This document shows positions 20,705-57,263 of a DNA stretch of 64,000 nt, piece after piece. Position 1 is the stretch's first letter, and each line of letters begins with the position of its first letter. The notes beneath the pieces were generated by a model. It was not told the DNA's origin and did no database searches. It saw nothing but the letters and a program-made list of their open reading frames with translations. The translations under genes and the position numbers were made by a program. Source of the stretch: an uncultured Bacteroidia bacterium (GTDB taxonomy: Bacteria > Bacteroidota > Bacteroidia > Bacteroidales > Prolixibacteraceae). The stretch spans positions 1-64,000 of the forward strand of contig CAINLJ010000137.1 in assembly GCA_903850335.1 (NCBI GenBank), read 5' to 3'.

Positions 20705-22480
20705 TTATATTGGTGCACATTGATTGGATAACCATTTCAAAACATCTGACTTCAACAATGGTTTTAAGCTGTTCGATATCTTTTTATGATAGTTATTAAC
20801 CCATCTGATTTCATCCTTATTCAAAAGTTTCGTGTTTATCATCCTCCGGTCAAGCGGACATAAGGTCAAAGTTTCAAACGACAAAAATTGTCCGAATGAG
20901 GATTCCTTATCCTGCCTGCATAATAGAATATTTTCGATCCTGATCCCATACTTACCCTCTCTGTACAAGCCTGGTTCATCAGAAATAATTTGTCCGTTTC
21001 TGATTGGCTGATCATTAATTTCTTGTCTGATACTCATTGGGCCCTCATGGACCGAAAGATAATGACCTACTCCATGTCCAGTTCCATGACCATAGTTCAA
21101 GTAATTATTCCATAAATCATTGCGTGCAAGAATATCAAGCGAATGCCCTTTTGTGCCTTTTGGAAATTTTGCATTCGCAAGTTTAATCATCCCCTTTAAT
21201 ACTAATGTGTAATCATTTTTGGTGATTGACTCAACTTTTCCGGTAGAAATGGTCCTTGTGATATCTGTTGTACCGTCAAGGTAATGGGCACCTGAATCAA
21301 TCAGCAAAATACCATTGGAAAATATCTGCCTGTCCGTTTCTGGTGTTGCACTATAGTGAACGATTGCGCCATTTGAACCAAATCCTACTATTGAATTAAA
21401 ACTTTCACCTTTAAAAAATCCTTGTTCCGAGCGAAACTGGCGAAGTTTTTCTGCCAAGGATAGTTCTGTTATTATTTCACTTTGCGAACGGGTATAAAAC
21501 CAGTATAGAAAATTTACCATCGCAGCCCCGTCGCGTCTGTGTGAAGCTTTCATTCCTGATATTTCAACCTTGTTTTTGATTGATTTTAGAAGCGTAGGAA
21601 TTGCTACCCCTTCGACTACCCAACAATTCTCACGAAAATAAGAGTATATAATTGAATTTGTTCTATTTGGATCAAGGTATACCGATTTTGGCGAATTCTT
21701 TTCAATTTGTTTTAATAGAGAGCCATAGTCCATTACTTCTATTTTATCCTTCTTTAAATTCCCAATTAACGTTGGACTTAGTCTCTCCTTTCCGACAAAT
21801 AAGTACGCATTCTCTTCATCTATATATCCAAAACCGGTAAAGACAGGATTTAAACTCCCTTCGTTACCTCTTAAATTAAAGCACCAGGCCAAATCGTCTA
21901 ACTGACAGATCAAAGTGGAATTTACACTAAAATCCCTCAGTTTTGTCCGGATAGCCGAAAGCTTTTCAACACGTGTCTGCCCAGCAAAACGAACTGGATA
22001 GTCGACGACAGGAGTACTTAGTTGCCGGGGTCTGTTTTCCCATATTATCGAGAGCAGATCCTGATTTTCGATTAAAGATATACCATTCGCACCTAATTTC
22101 TGCTTTAAAACATTTGATTCGGTTGCTGTAAACGTTTTCCCGTCAATCGCAAGCTTGTCACCTGGTATGAGCTCTGATACAAGCCACTGCTCCAGAGTGA
22201 TACTTTCCGGCAGACGATCTTTAATTATTTGATATTCTGTCCCCTTTAACTGTAATTCAGCTTGAATAAAATATCTTGAATCAGTCCACAGGACCGCCCT
22301 GCTTTTTGTGATTACCACTTTTCCATAGGATCCTGTGAAGCCACTTATCCATTCTATTGTTCTCCAATGAGGTGTAACGTATTCACTCAGATGCGGATCA
22401 GTACAATTAATAACAATGCCTTTAAGATCATTAAAGTCCATTAAATTACGCAGAGAGGTAAGCTTATCATTAATATTCAT
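20705..22480 (-). CDS. Xaa-Pro aminopeptidase, M24 family
   Basis: Dimetal cytoplasmic peptidase that removes N-terminal residues preceding proline. The 591-residue protein has two creatinase-like N-terminal domains (about 1-310) and an M24 pita-bread catalytic domain. Metal ligands are visible: the two Asp residues of LLIDSGAHYLDGTTDITRT, the His in GHGTGHGVGHYLSVHEGP, and the Glu residues in ISDEPGLYREG and GIRIEN. Length fits the large, three-domain aminopeptidase P type found in eukaryotes and many Bacteroidota rather than the 440-residue PepP. Its start overlaps the NUDIX gene stop by 4 bases, so the two are cotranscribed. Confidence 0.92.
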   Translation of the reverse strand: MNINDKLTSLRNLMDFNDLKGIVINCTDPHLSEYVTPHWRTIEWISGFTGSYGKVVITKSRAVLWTDSRYFIQAELQLKGTEYQIIKDRLPESITLEQWLVSELIPGDKLAIDGKTFTATESNVLKQKLGANGISLIENQDLLSIIWENRPRQLSTPVVDYPVRFAGQTRVEKLSAIRTKLRDFSVNSTLICQLDDLAWCFNLRGNEGSLNPVFTGFGYIDEENAYLFVGKERLSPTLIGNLKKDKIEVMDYGSLLKQIEKNSPKSVYLDPNRTNSIIYSYFRENCWVVEGVAIPTLLKSIKNKVEISGMKASHRRDGAAMVNFLYWFYTRSQSEIITELSLAEKLRQFRSEQGFFKGESFNSIVGFGSNGAIVHYSATPETDRQIFSNGILLIDSGAHYLDGTTDITRTISTGKVESITKNDYTLVLKGMIKLANAKFPKGTKGHSLDILARNDLWNNYLNYGHGTGHGVGHYLSVHEGPMSIRQEINDQPIRNGQIISDEPGLYREGKYGIRIENILLCRQDKESSFGQFLSFETLTLCPLDRRMINTKLLNKDEIRWVNNYHKKISNSLKPLLKSDVLKWLSNQCAPI

Positions 22481-23013
22481 TTTCTAATGTTTATATAATA
22501 TTTTATTATTTTAAACATACTTTCCGAACACAATTCTTCCTTTTGGATCTTTTCTGGAAATTTAAATTCAACAGCAGAAACATCGTCGTCAGGAACTAAT
22601 TCCGCGATATTATCAACGGTACAGATAAAGGCAAGGTCAACTGTAAAAACCGAGAAGCCTGAGTAGACATATTCGTTAGGGAATGAAACCAGGTATTCTG
22701 ATTTTGTTATATTCACTCCGAGTTCTTCCCGAATTTCGCGAATAACAGCATCCTCTGCCCTCTCCATTTGGTTTACAAATCCACCTGGCAGATCAAGCAT
22801 CCCCTTTGCAGGATTTATCGCACGTCTTGTTAAAAGTAATTCTCCTTTTTCATTGAAAATAAGACATGCTACAGCTGCCGAATTATTTATATAATAGTCG
22901 AACCGGCACTCTTCGCAATTGAATGACTGACCTTCATTAGTGGTTTTAAAGTCTTTACTTCCGCATCTTGGGCAATAACCAATTACATTTCTGGGATGAG
23001 TTTCGCTTGTCAT
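22477..23013 (-). CDS. NUDIX hydrolase with N-terminal zinc ribbon
   Basis: A 178-residue NUDIX enzyme that cleaves a nucleoside diphosphate linked to another moiety. The N terminus is a four-cysteine zinc ribbon (CPRC near residue 14 and CEEC near 33). The catalytic NUDIX box is complete: GFVNQME followed by the RE-I-REELGV helix, matching G-x5-E-x7-REUxEExGU. This layout resembles the NADH pyrophosphatase NudC, but the chain is shorter and lacks the NudC C-terminal signature, so the substrate is not assigned. It is the first gene of an operon with the M24 aminopeptidase, overlapping it by 4 bases (ATGA). Confidence 0.85.
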   Translation of the reverse strand: MTSETHPRNVIGYCPRCGSKDFKTTNEGQSFNCEECRFDYYINNSAAVACLIFNEKGELLLTRRAINPAKGMLDLPGGFVNQMERAEDAVIREIREELGVNITKSEYLVSFPNEYVYSGFSVFTVDLAFICTVDNIAELVPDDDVSAVEFKFPEKIQKEELCSESMFKIIKYYINIRK

Positions 23014-24298: not shown

Positions 24299-24336
24299 TA
24301 AAAAAGCCTGATAATCGATTGATTAACAGGCTTTTT
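24299..24336 (-). terminator. Terminator of tRNA-Lys(UUU)
   Basis: Minus-strand hairpin with a 10-bp stem (24301-24310 with 24327-24336), a 16-base loop and a T run. It begins right at the encoded CCA end of the tRNA. Confidence 0.8.
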
Positions 24337-24411
24337 GGTGACCCAGCTGGGATTCGGACCCAGGACCCCATCCTTAAAAGGGATGTGCTCTACCAGCTGA
24401 GCTACTGAGTC
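24336..24411 (-). tRNA. tRNA-Lys (anticodon UUU), CCA encoded
   Basis: The minus strand folds into a 76-base cloverleaf. The acceptor stem GACTCAG pairs with CTGGGTC (one G-U). The D arm is GCTC-AGCTGGTA-GAGC, the anticodon stem CATCC/GGATG encloses CTTTTAA, and the T arm is CTGGG/CCCAG with TCCGAAT in the loop. The anticodon TTT reads AAA and AAG lysine codons. The discriminator is A, and the 3' CCA is encoded at 24336-24338. A promoter lies 35 bases upstream and a terminator follows directly. Confidence 0.97.
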
Positions 24412-25490: not shown

Positions 25491-25563
25491 GACTCTGTAG
25501 CTCAGCTGGTAGAGCAATTGACTCTTAATCAATGGGTCGAGGGTTCGAATCCCTCCGGGGTCA
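25491..25563 (+). tRNA. tRNA-Lys (anticodon CUU), CCA not encoded
   Basis: A 73-base cloverleaf. The acceptor stem GACTCTG pairs with CGGGGTC (two G-U). The D arm is GCTC-AGCTGGTA-GAGC, the anticodon stem ATTGA/TCAAT encloses CTCTTAA, and the T arm is GAGGG/CCCTC with TTCGAAT. The anticodon CTT reads AAG. The discriminator is A, and the following bases are CTT rather than CCA, so a CCA-adding enzyme is needed. A consensus promoter lies upstream and a terminator 13 bases downstream. Confidence 0.97.
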
Positions 25564-25576
25564 CTTTTGAAAACAT

Positions 25577-54316: not shown

Positions 54317-55027
54317 ATGGGAAATCTATACCTAATACCCACCACCCTGGGTGAATCAGGAACCAGTCATGTAATACCTTCCGATGTTTCAGTGATCATT
54401 AAGAATATAAAGTATTTTATAGTTGAAAATATTAGAACCTCGAGACGATTTCTTCGGAAACTGGATCCAAATATGAATATAGACGAATTACAATTCTTTG
54501 AATTAAATCAACATACAGATAGCCGGATTATTGAAACTTATCTGAATCCAACCCAGGATGGGCATGACGTTGGTATAATCTCGGAGGCCGGGTGTCCCGG
54601 AGTAGCTGATCCTGGTGCTGAGGTTGTTAGATATGCTCATATCCGAAAAATCCGGGTCATTCCTTTGGTTGGCCCCTCCTCTATTCTGCTTTCTTTGATG
54701 GCATCAGGGATGAATGGTCAGAATTTTGCTTTTATTGGATATATTCCCGTTAAACCCGTTGAAAGGATTAAGACGATCAAAGAAATTGAAAGAAGATCGG
54801 CTTTTGAAAATCAGACACAGATATTTATCGAAGCTCCTTATCGCAATAATCAATTATTTAGTGACTTAGTTAAAAATCTTGGTGAACAGACCAGACTATG
54901 CATAGCCTGCGATCTGACACTGGAGACTGAATTTGTAAAAACATTAACGGTTAGTCGCTGGATAAAGGAAGTTCCGGATTTAAATAAACGTCCGGCAATA
55001 TTCCTCTTGTCAGCAAACAAAGTCTAA
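54317..55027 (+). CDS. RsmI-like SAM-dependent methyltransferase (tetrapyrrole methylase fold)
   Basis: A 236-residue protein of the RsmI/YraL group. RsmI proper 2'-O-methylates cytidine 1402 of 16S rRNA; this shorter form lacks the usual C-terminal domain, as in many Bacteroidota. Motifs are NLYLIPTTLGESG at the N terminus in place of LYxVaTPIGN, GIISEAGCPGVADPGAEVV (the conserved SDAGxPgisDPG box), and GPSSILLSLMASGMNGQNFA. The IFIEAPYRN segment also matches. Function on rRNA is inferred from the family. A second, full-length rsmI elsewhere would suggest a different target. It is transcribed divergently from the MBL gene. Confidence 0.85.
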   Translation: MGNLYLIPTTLGESGTSHVIPSDVSVIIKNIKYFIVENIRTSRRFLRKLDPNMNIDELQFFELNQHTDSRIIETYLNPTQDGHDVGIISEAGCPGVADPGAEVVRYAHIRKIRVIPLVGPSSILLSLMASGMNGQNFAFIGYIPVKPVERIKTIKEIERRSAFENQTQIFIEAPYRNNQLFSDLVKNLGEQTRLCIACDLTLETEFVKTLTVSRWIKEVPDLNKRPAIFLLSANKV

Positions 55028-55054: not shown

Positions 55055-56149
55055 CTAAGGCCTTAATTTATTCTTCAGCAAATTGTATTCGAATTCAAAA
55101 TTAGGTGTAAAAATATCCTGGCCAAGATGTTTTTCTATATTTGTTGGGCTCCAGAATCTCCCCTCCTTAACCTCGTCACTATGTAATTTTATCTTTTTAT
55201 AATCATAAGACAGGAAGCAATATACAAGCTCACTCTCTATTTCGGAATCCCATTTGTAATTACCAAGAGACCTGGCACTAAAATCATGAAGTCCAATTTC
55301 CTCGAATGCTTCGCGACGCAGGGCTGTTTCAAGATCTTCACCGTAGGATATATGTCCGCCGACTGAAGTGTCCCATTTCCCGGGTTGAACTAATTTTTCC
55401 AGCGGTCTTTTTTGGAGGTAAATGTGACCATTGGGGTTTACTACATGTAAATGGACAACCGGATGAAGGATTTTTTCTCCCATGTGACATGAAGATCTTG
55501 AAGCTTTTCCAATTATTCTTCCATTCTCTGCAACTACTGGTAACCATTCTTCATGCTCATTTAACAAAGTTGCATTATCGATTTCTACGCGTTTTACATT
55601 GTTTCGGTTTTTAAAGAATTCGTAAATGAAATAAACAACAAAAACAAGATAAAAAAGTCCACCGCTGATAAATGCCCATGCTTCTTTACTCATAAAGAAA
55701 GCAGAATAAAAAACTAATCCTGTATGAATAAGAACGATATAAAAAAGGTTTCGTAAATTTCGCTTGAACAGATTAGCCTGACTGTCATTCATCTCAATCC
55801 CGTTCATATATTTGCGGGTCATAGTCCCGACAATGTCGATTGACGAATAAACCGAGACTCCCAGGATGATGCATAAAATTGACTCAATTAGTGCAGGCTT
55901 TAATTTGAAAAATATATCATTTTCCAATAAAATCGAGATTCCTGATAAGGCTACCAGCATAGCAGTGTCCAATAATACAAAACGATCGAGTCGTTTTTCA
56001 CGAATCCAGGTATAGCCCATTTCGCCTACTCCTATAATCAAGGCTACAACTAAACCAACTTTCATCCCCCAATATTCGTCGGCAATGATAAAGACGAAAA
56101 GTGGCACGAAACCTGGAAGCAACTTTTTAATTAGTTCTGACTTTTTCAT
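55055..56149 (-). CDS. YciB/IspA-like membrane domain fused to a NUDIX hydrolase
   Basis: A 364-residue two-part protein. Residues 1 to about 178 form five or six membrane segments resembling intracellular septation protein A (YciB), including TWIREKRLDRFVLLDTAMLV and FFKLKPALIESILCIILG. Residues about 195-364 are a cytoplasmic NUDIX domain. Its catalytic box is complete: GHISYGE, then seven residues, then REAFEEIGL (265-287). The preamble VNPNGHIYLQKRPLEK, PGKWDTS is that of the YfcD/IPP-isomerase-like NUDIX branch. YciB-like proteins act in envelope synthesis, so the fusion may hydrolyse a lipid-linked or envelope pyrophosphate at the membrane. That is inference. Confidence 0.82.
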   Translation of the reverse strand: MKKSELIKKLLPGFVPLFVFIIADEYWGMKVGLVVALIIGVGEMGYTWIREKRLDRFVLLDTAMLVALSGISILLENDIFFKLKPALIESILCIILGVSVYSSIDIVGTMTRKYMNGIEMNDSQANLFKRNLRNLFYIVLIHTGLVFYSAFFMSKEAWAFISGGLFYLVFVVYFIYEFFKNRNNVKRVEIDNATLLNEHEEWLPVVAENGRIIGKASRSSCHMGEKILHPVVHLHVVNPNGHIYLQKRPLEKLVQPGKWDTSVGGHISYGEDLETALRREAFEEIGLHDFSARSLGNYKWDSEIESELVYCFLSYDYKKIKLHSDEVKEGRFWSPTNIEKHLGQDIFTPNFEFEYNLLKNKLRP

Positions 56150-56234: not shown

Positions 56235-57263
56235 TTAGTCAGTTTCTAATTGCAGGGCATACTTAGGCAATAAAGATCTGAAAAGTTCAAGGGCTTCCTT
56301 AATTGAAAGTTTTGTTTCACCTCCTGAAGCATTGCGGTGTCCGCCTCCGTGAAAATGCTCTCCCGAAAACTCATTCGTTGCGAAATTCCCTTTGGAACGA
56401 AAGGATACTTTTACAATTCCATTTTTCTCCATAAAAAAGGCAGAAAAAACAATCCCTTTTATTGAAAGTGGATAATTAACAAATCCTTCCGTATCACCGG
56501 GCTGAAAATCATATTTTTTTAATTCATTGGCCGTAAGCCATATAACGGCTGAGCGGTATTGGGGAAAAATCTCCATCTTCTCAGAAAGACAATAGCCCAA
56601 AAGTCGCATTCTTTTCTCGGAAAAATTATTAAACAATGAATCATTAATACGCTCTTTATCAGCACCTTTATTTATAAGCTCTCCAACAATCCGGTAAGTC
56701 GAATGGCGTGAGGCATTATGACTGAAAGAACCTGTGTCTGCAATGATTCCAGTCAGTAAAGCATTCGAGCCAACGCGTCCAATATGTTCTAACATACCTA
56801 GTGCCTCGACAAAGTCATAAACCAATTCTGCAGTTGAGCTAACATCTGTATCTGAAAAAATATATTCGGCATTAATCTTAGGGTCGGGATGATGGTCGAT
56901 TAAAACAATTGGTTTTTTCATAAAATGCAAATATTCTTCAATCTTTCCCAATCTTTTAAGATCATTGAAGTCGAGAAAAAATAATGCATCGGTCTTAGCT
57001 AGTATATTCTGGCATAGCTTGGTATTGTTTTCATATACCAAAGGGTGATGATGGTTATCCAACCAATTTAAGTATCCGGGAAAATCATTTGGAACAATAA
57101 CACAGGAATCGAATCCGGCATTTATGAATATGTCATTTAATCCAATTGAAGCGCCAATTGCGTCACCATCAGGATTTACATGAGGAATGATAACCACCTT
57201 TTTTACAGATCCTTTAAGCCAGTCACTCACTCTTGCGCAGGTATTTTTATCAAATCTATTCAA
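56235..57263 (-). CDS. DHH/DHHA1 phosphoesterase, NrnA-like
   Basis: A 342-residue manganese-dependent phosphoesterase of the NrnA group, which degrades nano-RNA and dephosphorylates 3'-phosphoadenosine 5'-phosphate. Metal motifs are HVNPDGDAIGASIGL, DFNDLKRL, the name motif in VLIDHHPDPKIN and DTGSFSHNASRHSTY. The DHHA1 domain ends with GEHFHGGGHRNASGGET. The only available start is the TTG at 57263, since an in-frame stop lies two codons upstream. The two activities cannot be separated by sequence. It is transcribed divergently from ndk. Confidence 0.9.
   Translation of the reverse strand: MNRFDKNTCARVSDWLKGSVKKVVIIPHVNPDGDAIGASIGLNDIFINAGFDSCVIVPNDFPGYLNWLDNHHHPLVYENNTKLCQNILAKTDALFFLDFNDLKRLGKIEEYLHFMKKPIVLIDHHPDPKINAEYIFSDTDVSSTAELVYDFVEALGMLEHIGRVGSNALLTGIIADTGSFSHNASRHSTYRIVGELINKGADKERINDSLFNNFSEKRMRLLGYCLSEKMEIFPQYRSAVIWLTANELKKYDFQPGDTEGFVNYPLSIKGIVFSAFFMEKNGIVKVSFRSKGNFATNEFSGEHFHGGGHRNASGGETKLSIKEALELFRSLLPKYALQLETD

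Follow-up and report, generated by a model that had tools for sequence, protein, structure and literature searches.

The stretch of DNA analysed here (the window, 64,000 nucleotides from an uncultured Bacteroidia bacterium of the Prolixibacteraceae) carries on its minus strand an open reading frame for 364 amino acids that begins with ATG and runs without internal stop or frameshift. Its closest named homologues are, by record title, entries for Bacteroidia, Mariniphaga and Prolixibacteraceae. In Pfam, PF04279 (IspA/YciB) matches residues 9–178 with 47.1 bits (cut-off 28.7) and PF00293 (NUDIX) matches residues 229–340 with 55.8 bits (cut-off 21.1), bearing out the original prediction that a YciB-like domain is joined here to a NUDIX domain with a complete catalytic box (G265–L287), and that positions 55055–56149 hold a single intact gene. 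The features of the locus are the following.

54317 to 55027, plus strand: RsmI-like methyltransferase, convergent neighbour (match to RsmI 5hw4, E 5e-24)
55055 to 56149, minus strand: YciB–NUDIX fusion gene
55595 to 56149, minus strand: N-terminal YciB/IspA membrane domain, residues 1–185 (PF04279, models, charge, hhalign)
55895 to 55921, minus strand: motif N77-D-I-F-F-K82-L-K84-P85 at the predicted outer turn of helices 3–4
55064 to 55552, minus strand: C-terminal NUDIX domain of the IDI/YfcD group, residues 200–362 (profiles, fold)
55463 to 55486, minus strand: codons H222 to H229, paired with IDI His25 and His32 (hhalign to E. coli IDI)
55289 to 55357, minus strand: Nudix box G265–L287 (sequence, PF00293)
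55229 to 55237, minus strand: codons E305-S-E307, paired with IDI Glu114 and Glu116 (hhalign)
56235 to 57263, minus strand: NrnA-like DHH/DHHA1 protein, upstream neighbour (PF01368, PF02272)

Both neighbours are named by likeness, the upstream gene scoring 91.2 bits against the NrnA profile (cut-off 350) and the convergent gene 105.9 bits against TIGR00096 (cut-off 167.9), with no Pfam family for the latter at E 0.01. At 18 loci (L001–L018) a same-strand NrnA-like gene stands upstream every time, and the RsmI-like gene is downstream and convergent at 17. Of 113 unique loci of the intact fusion (class A), 31 have an RsmI-like gene and 7 have NrnA no more than 400 bases away, and at some of them FKBP-like genes, as judged by eye, intervene. 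The active fusion showed no conserved operon from which a pathway could be read, the commonest neighbour occurring in 4 of 20 distant loci. A promoter and terminator scan around the gene gave no signal above shuffled sequence, and a repeat search there returned nothing beyond two short two-copy families. Elsewhere in the window, two tRNA-Lys genes lie on opposite strands (24336–24411, minus; 25491–25564, plus) and differ in their anticodons.

The joining of YciB and NUDIX is genuine and occurs widely within one bacterial order. A search for the same fusion, proposed along with the original prediction, found it at full length in all 18 genomes from the same genus (the window's own genome counted). 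In the family, a match spanning both halves at E ≤ 1e-160 is present in 113 of 140 genomes, one of these matches ending at a contig end and two carrying a stop codon in the matched stretch. Among loci with a match at E 1e-20 the fusion is full length in 111 of 119, a count that takes in the window and repeats of one gene, and PF04279 was found in 24 of 41 relatives, one match each and always at the fusion site. An order-wide search, in which a profile of 72 intact fusions was run against 295 genomes and the loci were then read, placed the intact fusion in 38 genomes of 20 families among the matches listed, including one genome (G377) where contig ends split it. Further afield, the fusion occurs in one genome of another class of the same phylum (G256, in a sample of 296) and in 3 of 99 genomes from the phylum of G611 (the genome of an Aminicenantes-titled record, L084), a count that includes G611 as its own centre and G648, where it lies at a contig end; in G697 it sits well inside a 224-kb contig. 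The same-genus and family counts rule out a frameshift, a misassembly or a fusion confined to one genome, and the worry that the joint might be restricted to this genome or produced by a frameshift falls away, the fusion being conserved and uninterrupted.

Models of the whole protein (AlphaFold2; pLDDT 88.8, pTM 0.55) and of the membrane half alone (pLDDT 82.7, pTM 0.71) agree on six long helices and a short one in the membrane half, with helix 6 continuing into the NUDIX domain. Basic residues concentrate on the N-terminus, the 2–3 loop, the 4–5 loop and the C-terminal linker: positive charge per sequence is 2.8, 3.7, 5.8 and 4.6 on the N-terminus and predicted inner stretches, and 0.8, 0.0 and 0.7 on the predicted outer loops. 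This distribution argues for an N-in orientation with a cytosolic NUDIX domain, and a topology of six predicted membrane helices with both the N-terminus and the NUDIX domain in the cytosol is likely on the models and the sequences. The outer halves of the helices are more conserved than the inner halves (0.78 vs 0.65; Mann–Whitney P 3e-4, in a test where neighbouring residues are not independent). Sixteen columns are invariant in 54 sequences, D24, D61, F80, F81, K84, P85, W158 and S162 among them, and within the motif at the predicted outer turn F80, F81, K84 and P85 are invariant in 72 homologues. On the strength of the higher outer-half conservation, the invariant residues and this motif, the membrane half seems to carry a conserved site of its own, facing outward on the far side from the NUDIX domain.

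The pattern N-D-x-F-x-K-x-K is common to the membrane half and E. coli YciB, with which it aligns in hhalign at a probability of 96.6 and 22% identity. Scores for narrower families stay below their cut-offs, at best 40.1 bits against 180 for the NCBIfam equivalog 'septation protein A' and 29.9 bits against 65 for the VC0807 family (NF041646). Searched with Foldseek, the membrane-only model matched no solved structure below E 1.7; in VIA-align it reached Z 7.3 at most, a range which the tool calls common and which does not imply a novel fold.

In the NUDIX half, the Nudix box GX5EX7REUXEEXGU can be read as G265-HISYG-E271-DLETALR-R279E280-A-F-E283E284-I-G286-L287, with Ala at the U position after RE and a good fit at the charged positions; E271, E280, E283 and E284 are each present in 113 of 113 unique intact fusions. 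The best-scoring NCBIfam profiles belong to the IDI/YfcD group, below every cut-off listed: 63.7 and 44.6 bits for the two IDI profiles (cut-offs 127 and 105.8, the latter that of TIGR02150) and 60.5 bits for YfcD (NF011922; cut-off 152). Fold comparison of the AlphaFold2 model gave the same group, led by YfcD (Z 23.4, rmsd 1.7 over 161 residues) and followed by human IDI (Z 21.1), E. coli IDI (Z 20.5) and DR0079 (Z 20.1), the remaining Nudix proteins matching at Z 17.6 and lower. The possibility, raised with the original prediction, that this is only a MutT-like housekeeping activity finds no support in family or fold: the MutT (8-oxo-dGTP diphosphatase) profile TIGR00586 scores 21.7 bits, far below its cut-off of 97.9, and with the fold nearer to IDI and YfcD a NUDIX domain of MutT type is disfavoured.

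The comparison with type 1 IDI is informative at the level of single residues. In E. coli IDI, His25, His32, His69, Glu114 and Glu116 are the metal-cage residues and Cys67 is the catalytic cysteine; a search of the open-access literature for the roles of these residues returned nothing. By hhalign, H25, H32, C67, H69, Y104, E114 and E116 of the E. coli enzyme pair with H222, H229, G264, H266, Y298, E305 and E307, so that all metal-cage positions are present in the fusion; MAFFT keeps H222, H229, G264, H266 and E307 in register and leaves Y298 and E305 out of it. H222 is conserved in 111 of the 113 unique intact fusions, H229 in 112, H266 in 113, E305 in 111 and E307 in 110; three sequences (L107, L157 and L158) lack part of the cage. 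Position 264, the Cys67 site, is Gly in 110, Ala in two, Thr in one and Cys in none. Taken with the fold and the Nudix glutamates, the kept cage and Gly264 make the NUDIX half look like an IDI-class domain with hydrolase chemistry. The genome holds five NUDIX genes in all; the second one within the window (22477–23013, minus strand) has an N-terminal CxxC...CxxC stretch resembling a zinc ribbon.

Our order-wide search also revealed that the two modules occur apart. Homologues were assigned to classes by score and coverage against the profile built from intact fusions, a choice to which some of the residue conservation in class A is due; full-length classes are separated by a score gap (at least 269 bits for class A, at most 133.7 for class C, described below), and seven sequences outside all classes were dropped, namely six distant NUDIX proteins and one shorter, class-C-like frame (L172). 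A stand-alone NUDIX protein (class B) was found in 55 of the 295 genomes among the matches listed, and the 22 unique sequences read retain every catalytic glutamate and cage residue; one of them (L195) is a fragment of a fusion at a contig end. Conversely, the membrane half stands alone in class T, which comprises three sequences: two complete genes (L177, 3996–4562; L178, 3236–3835) and a third (L194) that ends at a contig end. The two complete genes are of YciB type and closely resemble the fused form, and the stretch read around them contains no NUDIX domain.

Among the matches listed, and by statistics that ignore kinship between genomes, class A shares no genome with class B (7.1 expected; hypergeometric P 2e-4) or with class C (2.8 expected; P 0.04), and classes B and C share 17 (4.1 expected; P 5e-10). 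Four families hold both A and B, yet no genome among the matches listed does. In a tree of NUDIX sequences the class B rows are scattered inside class A, and its starred branches force at least five label changes; one outgroup row (L115) lies inside on a branch of 5.55, the bootstrap is not settled and one B row is a contig-end piece. From this scatter, the membrane half has probably been lost repeatedly. Judged by eye, two of the losses look recent: L226 (1336–1941) reads in a single frame from residues 1–19 of the membrane half into the NUDIX domain, as would result either from an internal deletion not long ago or from faulty assembly, and upstream of L225 there is a leftover stretch resembling the end of helix 6.

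The NUDIX domain has been lost as well. All four genomes of genus g332, which belongs to the same family as the window, retain the membrane half and continue it with about 130 residues without a recognisable NUDIX domain (L219, 2590–3543; L220, 2657–3640; L221, 2097–3059; L222, 2229–3239), the C-terminal stretch aligning with NUDIX at an hhalign probability of 12.7 and giving no Pfam NUDIX match in the two tested. In L219 and L220 the position of the gene is unchanged, following those for Ndk, NrnA and an FKBP-like protein. By its sequence this genus represents a second, separate loss, this time of NUDIX and within the family to which the window belongs.

The other case is class C, found in other families of the order, a full-length relative of both halves in which the NUDIX active site is lost (L116, L118, L120, L122, L159–L171 and L173–L176). 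It is present in at least 22 genomes, a lower bound because the order-wide matches extend to about E 2e-15. In hhalign against the intact fusion, class C reaches a probability of 96.9 over the membrane half and 99.9 over the NUDIX half. That the membrane halves are homologous is taken from this comparison, and the signal is weak for single sequences, the membrane-only profile failing to match 6 of 21 at E 10 and matching 5 more above E 0.1. E280, H222, H266, E305 and E307 are each absent from all 21 sequences, E283, E284 and E271 remain in 4, 2 and 10, and W333 (21/21), E354 (21/21), D260 (19/21) and H229 (18/21) are kept. With dN/dS of 0.21, 0.11 and 0.31 for the NUDIX part in the 3 of 6 pairs with unsaturated dS (1.2–2.0, close to saturation), class C is under purifying selection in these sequence comparisons and is not decaying junk. 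It is also unannotated, without a match in Pfam (two of two tested), NCBIfam (three of three) or the sequences of the PDB (one of one). Among the matches listed, 17 of the 22 class C genomes also hold a stand-alone NUDIX, and five are without class B.

Upstream, lipA precedes class C on the same strand at 10 of 21 loci, and at 7 of 21 loci in three families of the order (L165, L168, L171, L173, L174, L175 and L176) miaA follows directly on the same strand, the two ends overlapping if miaA is read from its first start codon; PF01715 confirms the identity of miaA in 2 of the 7. In the stretches covered, miaA lies within 400 bases of none of the 113 active fusions and none of the 22 stand-alone NUDIX genes. 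MiaA uses dimethylallyl diphosphate (DMAPP), and its adjacency is a hint, confined to the inactive class, that the YciB–NUDIX family deals with C5 diphosphates; a search of the open-access literature for MiaA together with IPP, DMAPP and Bacteroides returned nothing. At two loci (L116 and L118) class C stands tail to tail with an RsmI-like gene, as does the window's gene, which suggests that class C and the fusion share an ancestral place.

From the computed observations, namely the fusion itself, its conservation, its family assignment, its conserved residues and the separability of its modules, we infer topology, hydrolysis, substrate and the role of the fusion as follows. With a probability of roughly 40%, we postulate that the protein is a membrane-tethered, cytosol-facing pyrophosphohydrolase of the IDI class, for which a prenyl diphosphate would be the most likely substrate. 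The six-helix YciB domain would hold the NUDIX domain on the cytosolic face of the inner membrane and supply location as well as its own conserved outward-facing site. The NUDIX domain would bind the diphosphate through the Nudix-box glutamates and an additional His3–Glu2 metal site of IDI type, and the diphosphate, drawn from or near the membrane, would be cleaved and not isomerised by the IDI mechanism because the catalytic Cys is replaced by Gly. The fusion may thereby act as a valve on isoprenoid diphosphates, in the manner of the plant enzymes AtNudx1 and AtNudx3. Among the candidates, short prenyl diphosphates are ranked first, because a cytosolic role on undecaprenyl diphosphate would clash with a view, put forward in one source (PMC12826051), that places this step on the outer face.

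Several of our own results weigh against a prenyl diphosphate. The cage is not exclusive to the fusion, since a NUDIX protein from another family of the class (L112) keeps three of its five positions, and the pairing of Y298 and E305 hinges on where the alignment gaps are placed. The neighbours, NrnA-like, RsmI-like and Ndk, include no isoprenoid gene and fit a nucleotide substrate equally; miaA adjoins the inactive class only, in three families. The window's own genome contains IspH and a type-2-IDI-like gene (L208, outside the window at G000:C271:98778-99764; 187 bits vs a cut-off of 281), so that no isoprenoid step is obviously missing. And where the NUDIX domain occurs without the membrane domain, as it does in several lineages, a membrane-bound substrate cannot be a requirement. 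The main rival is a nucleotide housekeeping hydrolase of the DR0079/YfcD kind, with the membrane anchor serving for location only, which we regard as a serious possibility although we would not expect it to prove correct. It gains from YfcD being the closest fold and from DR0079, of the same structural group, which according to a 2008 paper reportedly prefers cytosine nucleotides; from the nucleotide genes next door (NrnA-like and Ndk); from the position of the stand-alone NUDIX after topB (8 of 22) or queA (2 of 22); and from the repeated loss of the membrane domain. A mere anchor, however, should not keep the 16 invariant columns, with D24, D61, K84 and W158 among them, nor occur as a stand-alone gene, as in L177 and L178, and YfcD and DR0079 are without most of the cage positions kept in the fusion.

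That class C retains its full length, W333, E354 and purifying selection despite a lost active site, and that g332 keeps the membrane half without a recognisable NUDIX domain, could also be understood if NUDIX were mainly a sensor or partner-binding domain regulating YciB, with hydrolysis secondary and the inactive lineages keeping a regulatory fold. This is unlikely in our view: four catalytic glutamates in 113 of 113 class A sequences are what one expects of an enzyme, and class C often shares its genome with a separate intact NUDIX (17 of 22 genomes). A true IDI, making DMAPP from IPP, would account for the fold and the metal cage; the Cys67 site is never Cys in the 113 unique intact fusions, however, the profiles remain under their cut-offs and the hydrolase glutamates are in place, so an isomerase is disfavoured and very improbable. 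Finally, the prenyl-diphosphate hydrolase might be one part of a larger scheme, in which the YciB domain itself handles prenyl (pyro)phosphates and is coupled to the cytosolic hydrolase, and in which duplication was followed by a split into a soluble active NUDIX and a membrane copy whose dead NUDIX senses DMAPP/IPP and is in some lineages translated with MiaA. We consider this scheme improbable as a whole; if it were true, the fusion would name the missing substrate class of the YciB family.

To our knowledge, YciB proteins have no assigned biochemical task; being covalently joined to a conserved partner of a narrow enzyme class points directly to what they handle. That the modules separate or lose activity in relatives provides a new handle on the role of YciB proteins, and the fusion ties the unannotated class C of the same order to a known domain pair. 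The original prediction that a pyrophosphate compound is hydrolysed at the membrane is supported in part, while still a prediction as to hydrolysis itself, by the YciB membrane domain, the predicted cytosolic NUDIX domain, the intact box and the clade-wide occurrence. As to the possible lipid-pyrophosphate substrate raised with it, a prenyl diphosphate appears more plausible than could be known at the time, because the IDI metal-cage positions are kept. The proposed link to the envelope and septation rests on the YciB name. Domain fusion as a kind, Nudix hydrolases and YciB proteins are already known; we found no description of a YciB–NUDIX fusion in the open-access literature, where papers that bring up YciB or a septation protein along with Nudix deal with B. 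subtilis 8-oxoG or, by their titles, with a fungus and Streptomyces. As far as that literature was searched, what is new is the pairing of YciB with a NUDIX of the IDI class, the conservation of this pairing and the way it has split into active and inactive forms.

Compared with known systems, the NUDIX half matches YfcD and DR0079 in fold (Z 23.4 and 20.1). Unlike the fusion, YfcD keeps one of the five cage positions (H32; MAFFT alignment), DR0079 has no His at the three cage His positions (in one alignment), and the matched chains of both are 161–180 residues long without a membrane half. It resembles E. coli Idi (type 1) in fold and metal-cage positions, and differs from it in having Gly in place of the catalytic Cys, a complete hydrolase Nudix box and scores that do not reach the IDI cut-offs. 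In its proposed working, the fusion would be analogous to AtNudx1 and AtNudx3, plant Nudix enzymes that, according to PMC6779861, dephosphorylate IPP and DMAPP, lower terpenoid output and, unlike the fusion, are cytosolic; the fold of AtNUDX1 matches our model at only Z 14.7–14.8, and AtNudx3 is likened by function alone. With E. coli YciB, the membrane half shares PF04279 above its cut-off and the N-D-x-F-x-K-x-K pattern, and is set apart by 22% identity, a score far below the septation-protein-A cut-off and the attached NUDIX domain. E. coli YciB is described as acting with DcrB in the maintenance of membrane fluidity, YciB proteins are linked to envelope integrity (PMC9487459), and E. coli YciB serves as a receptor for CDI toxins (PMC11630599).
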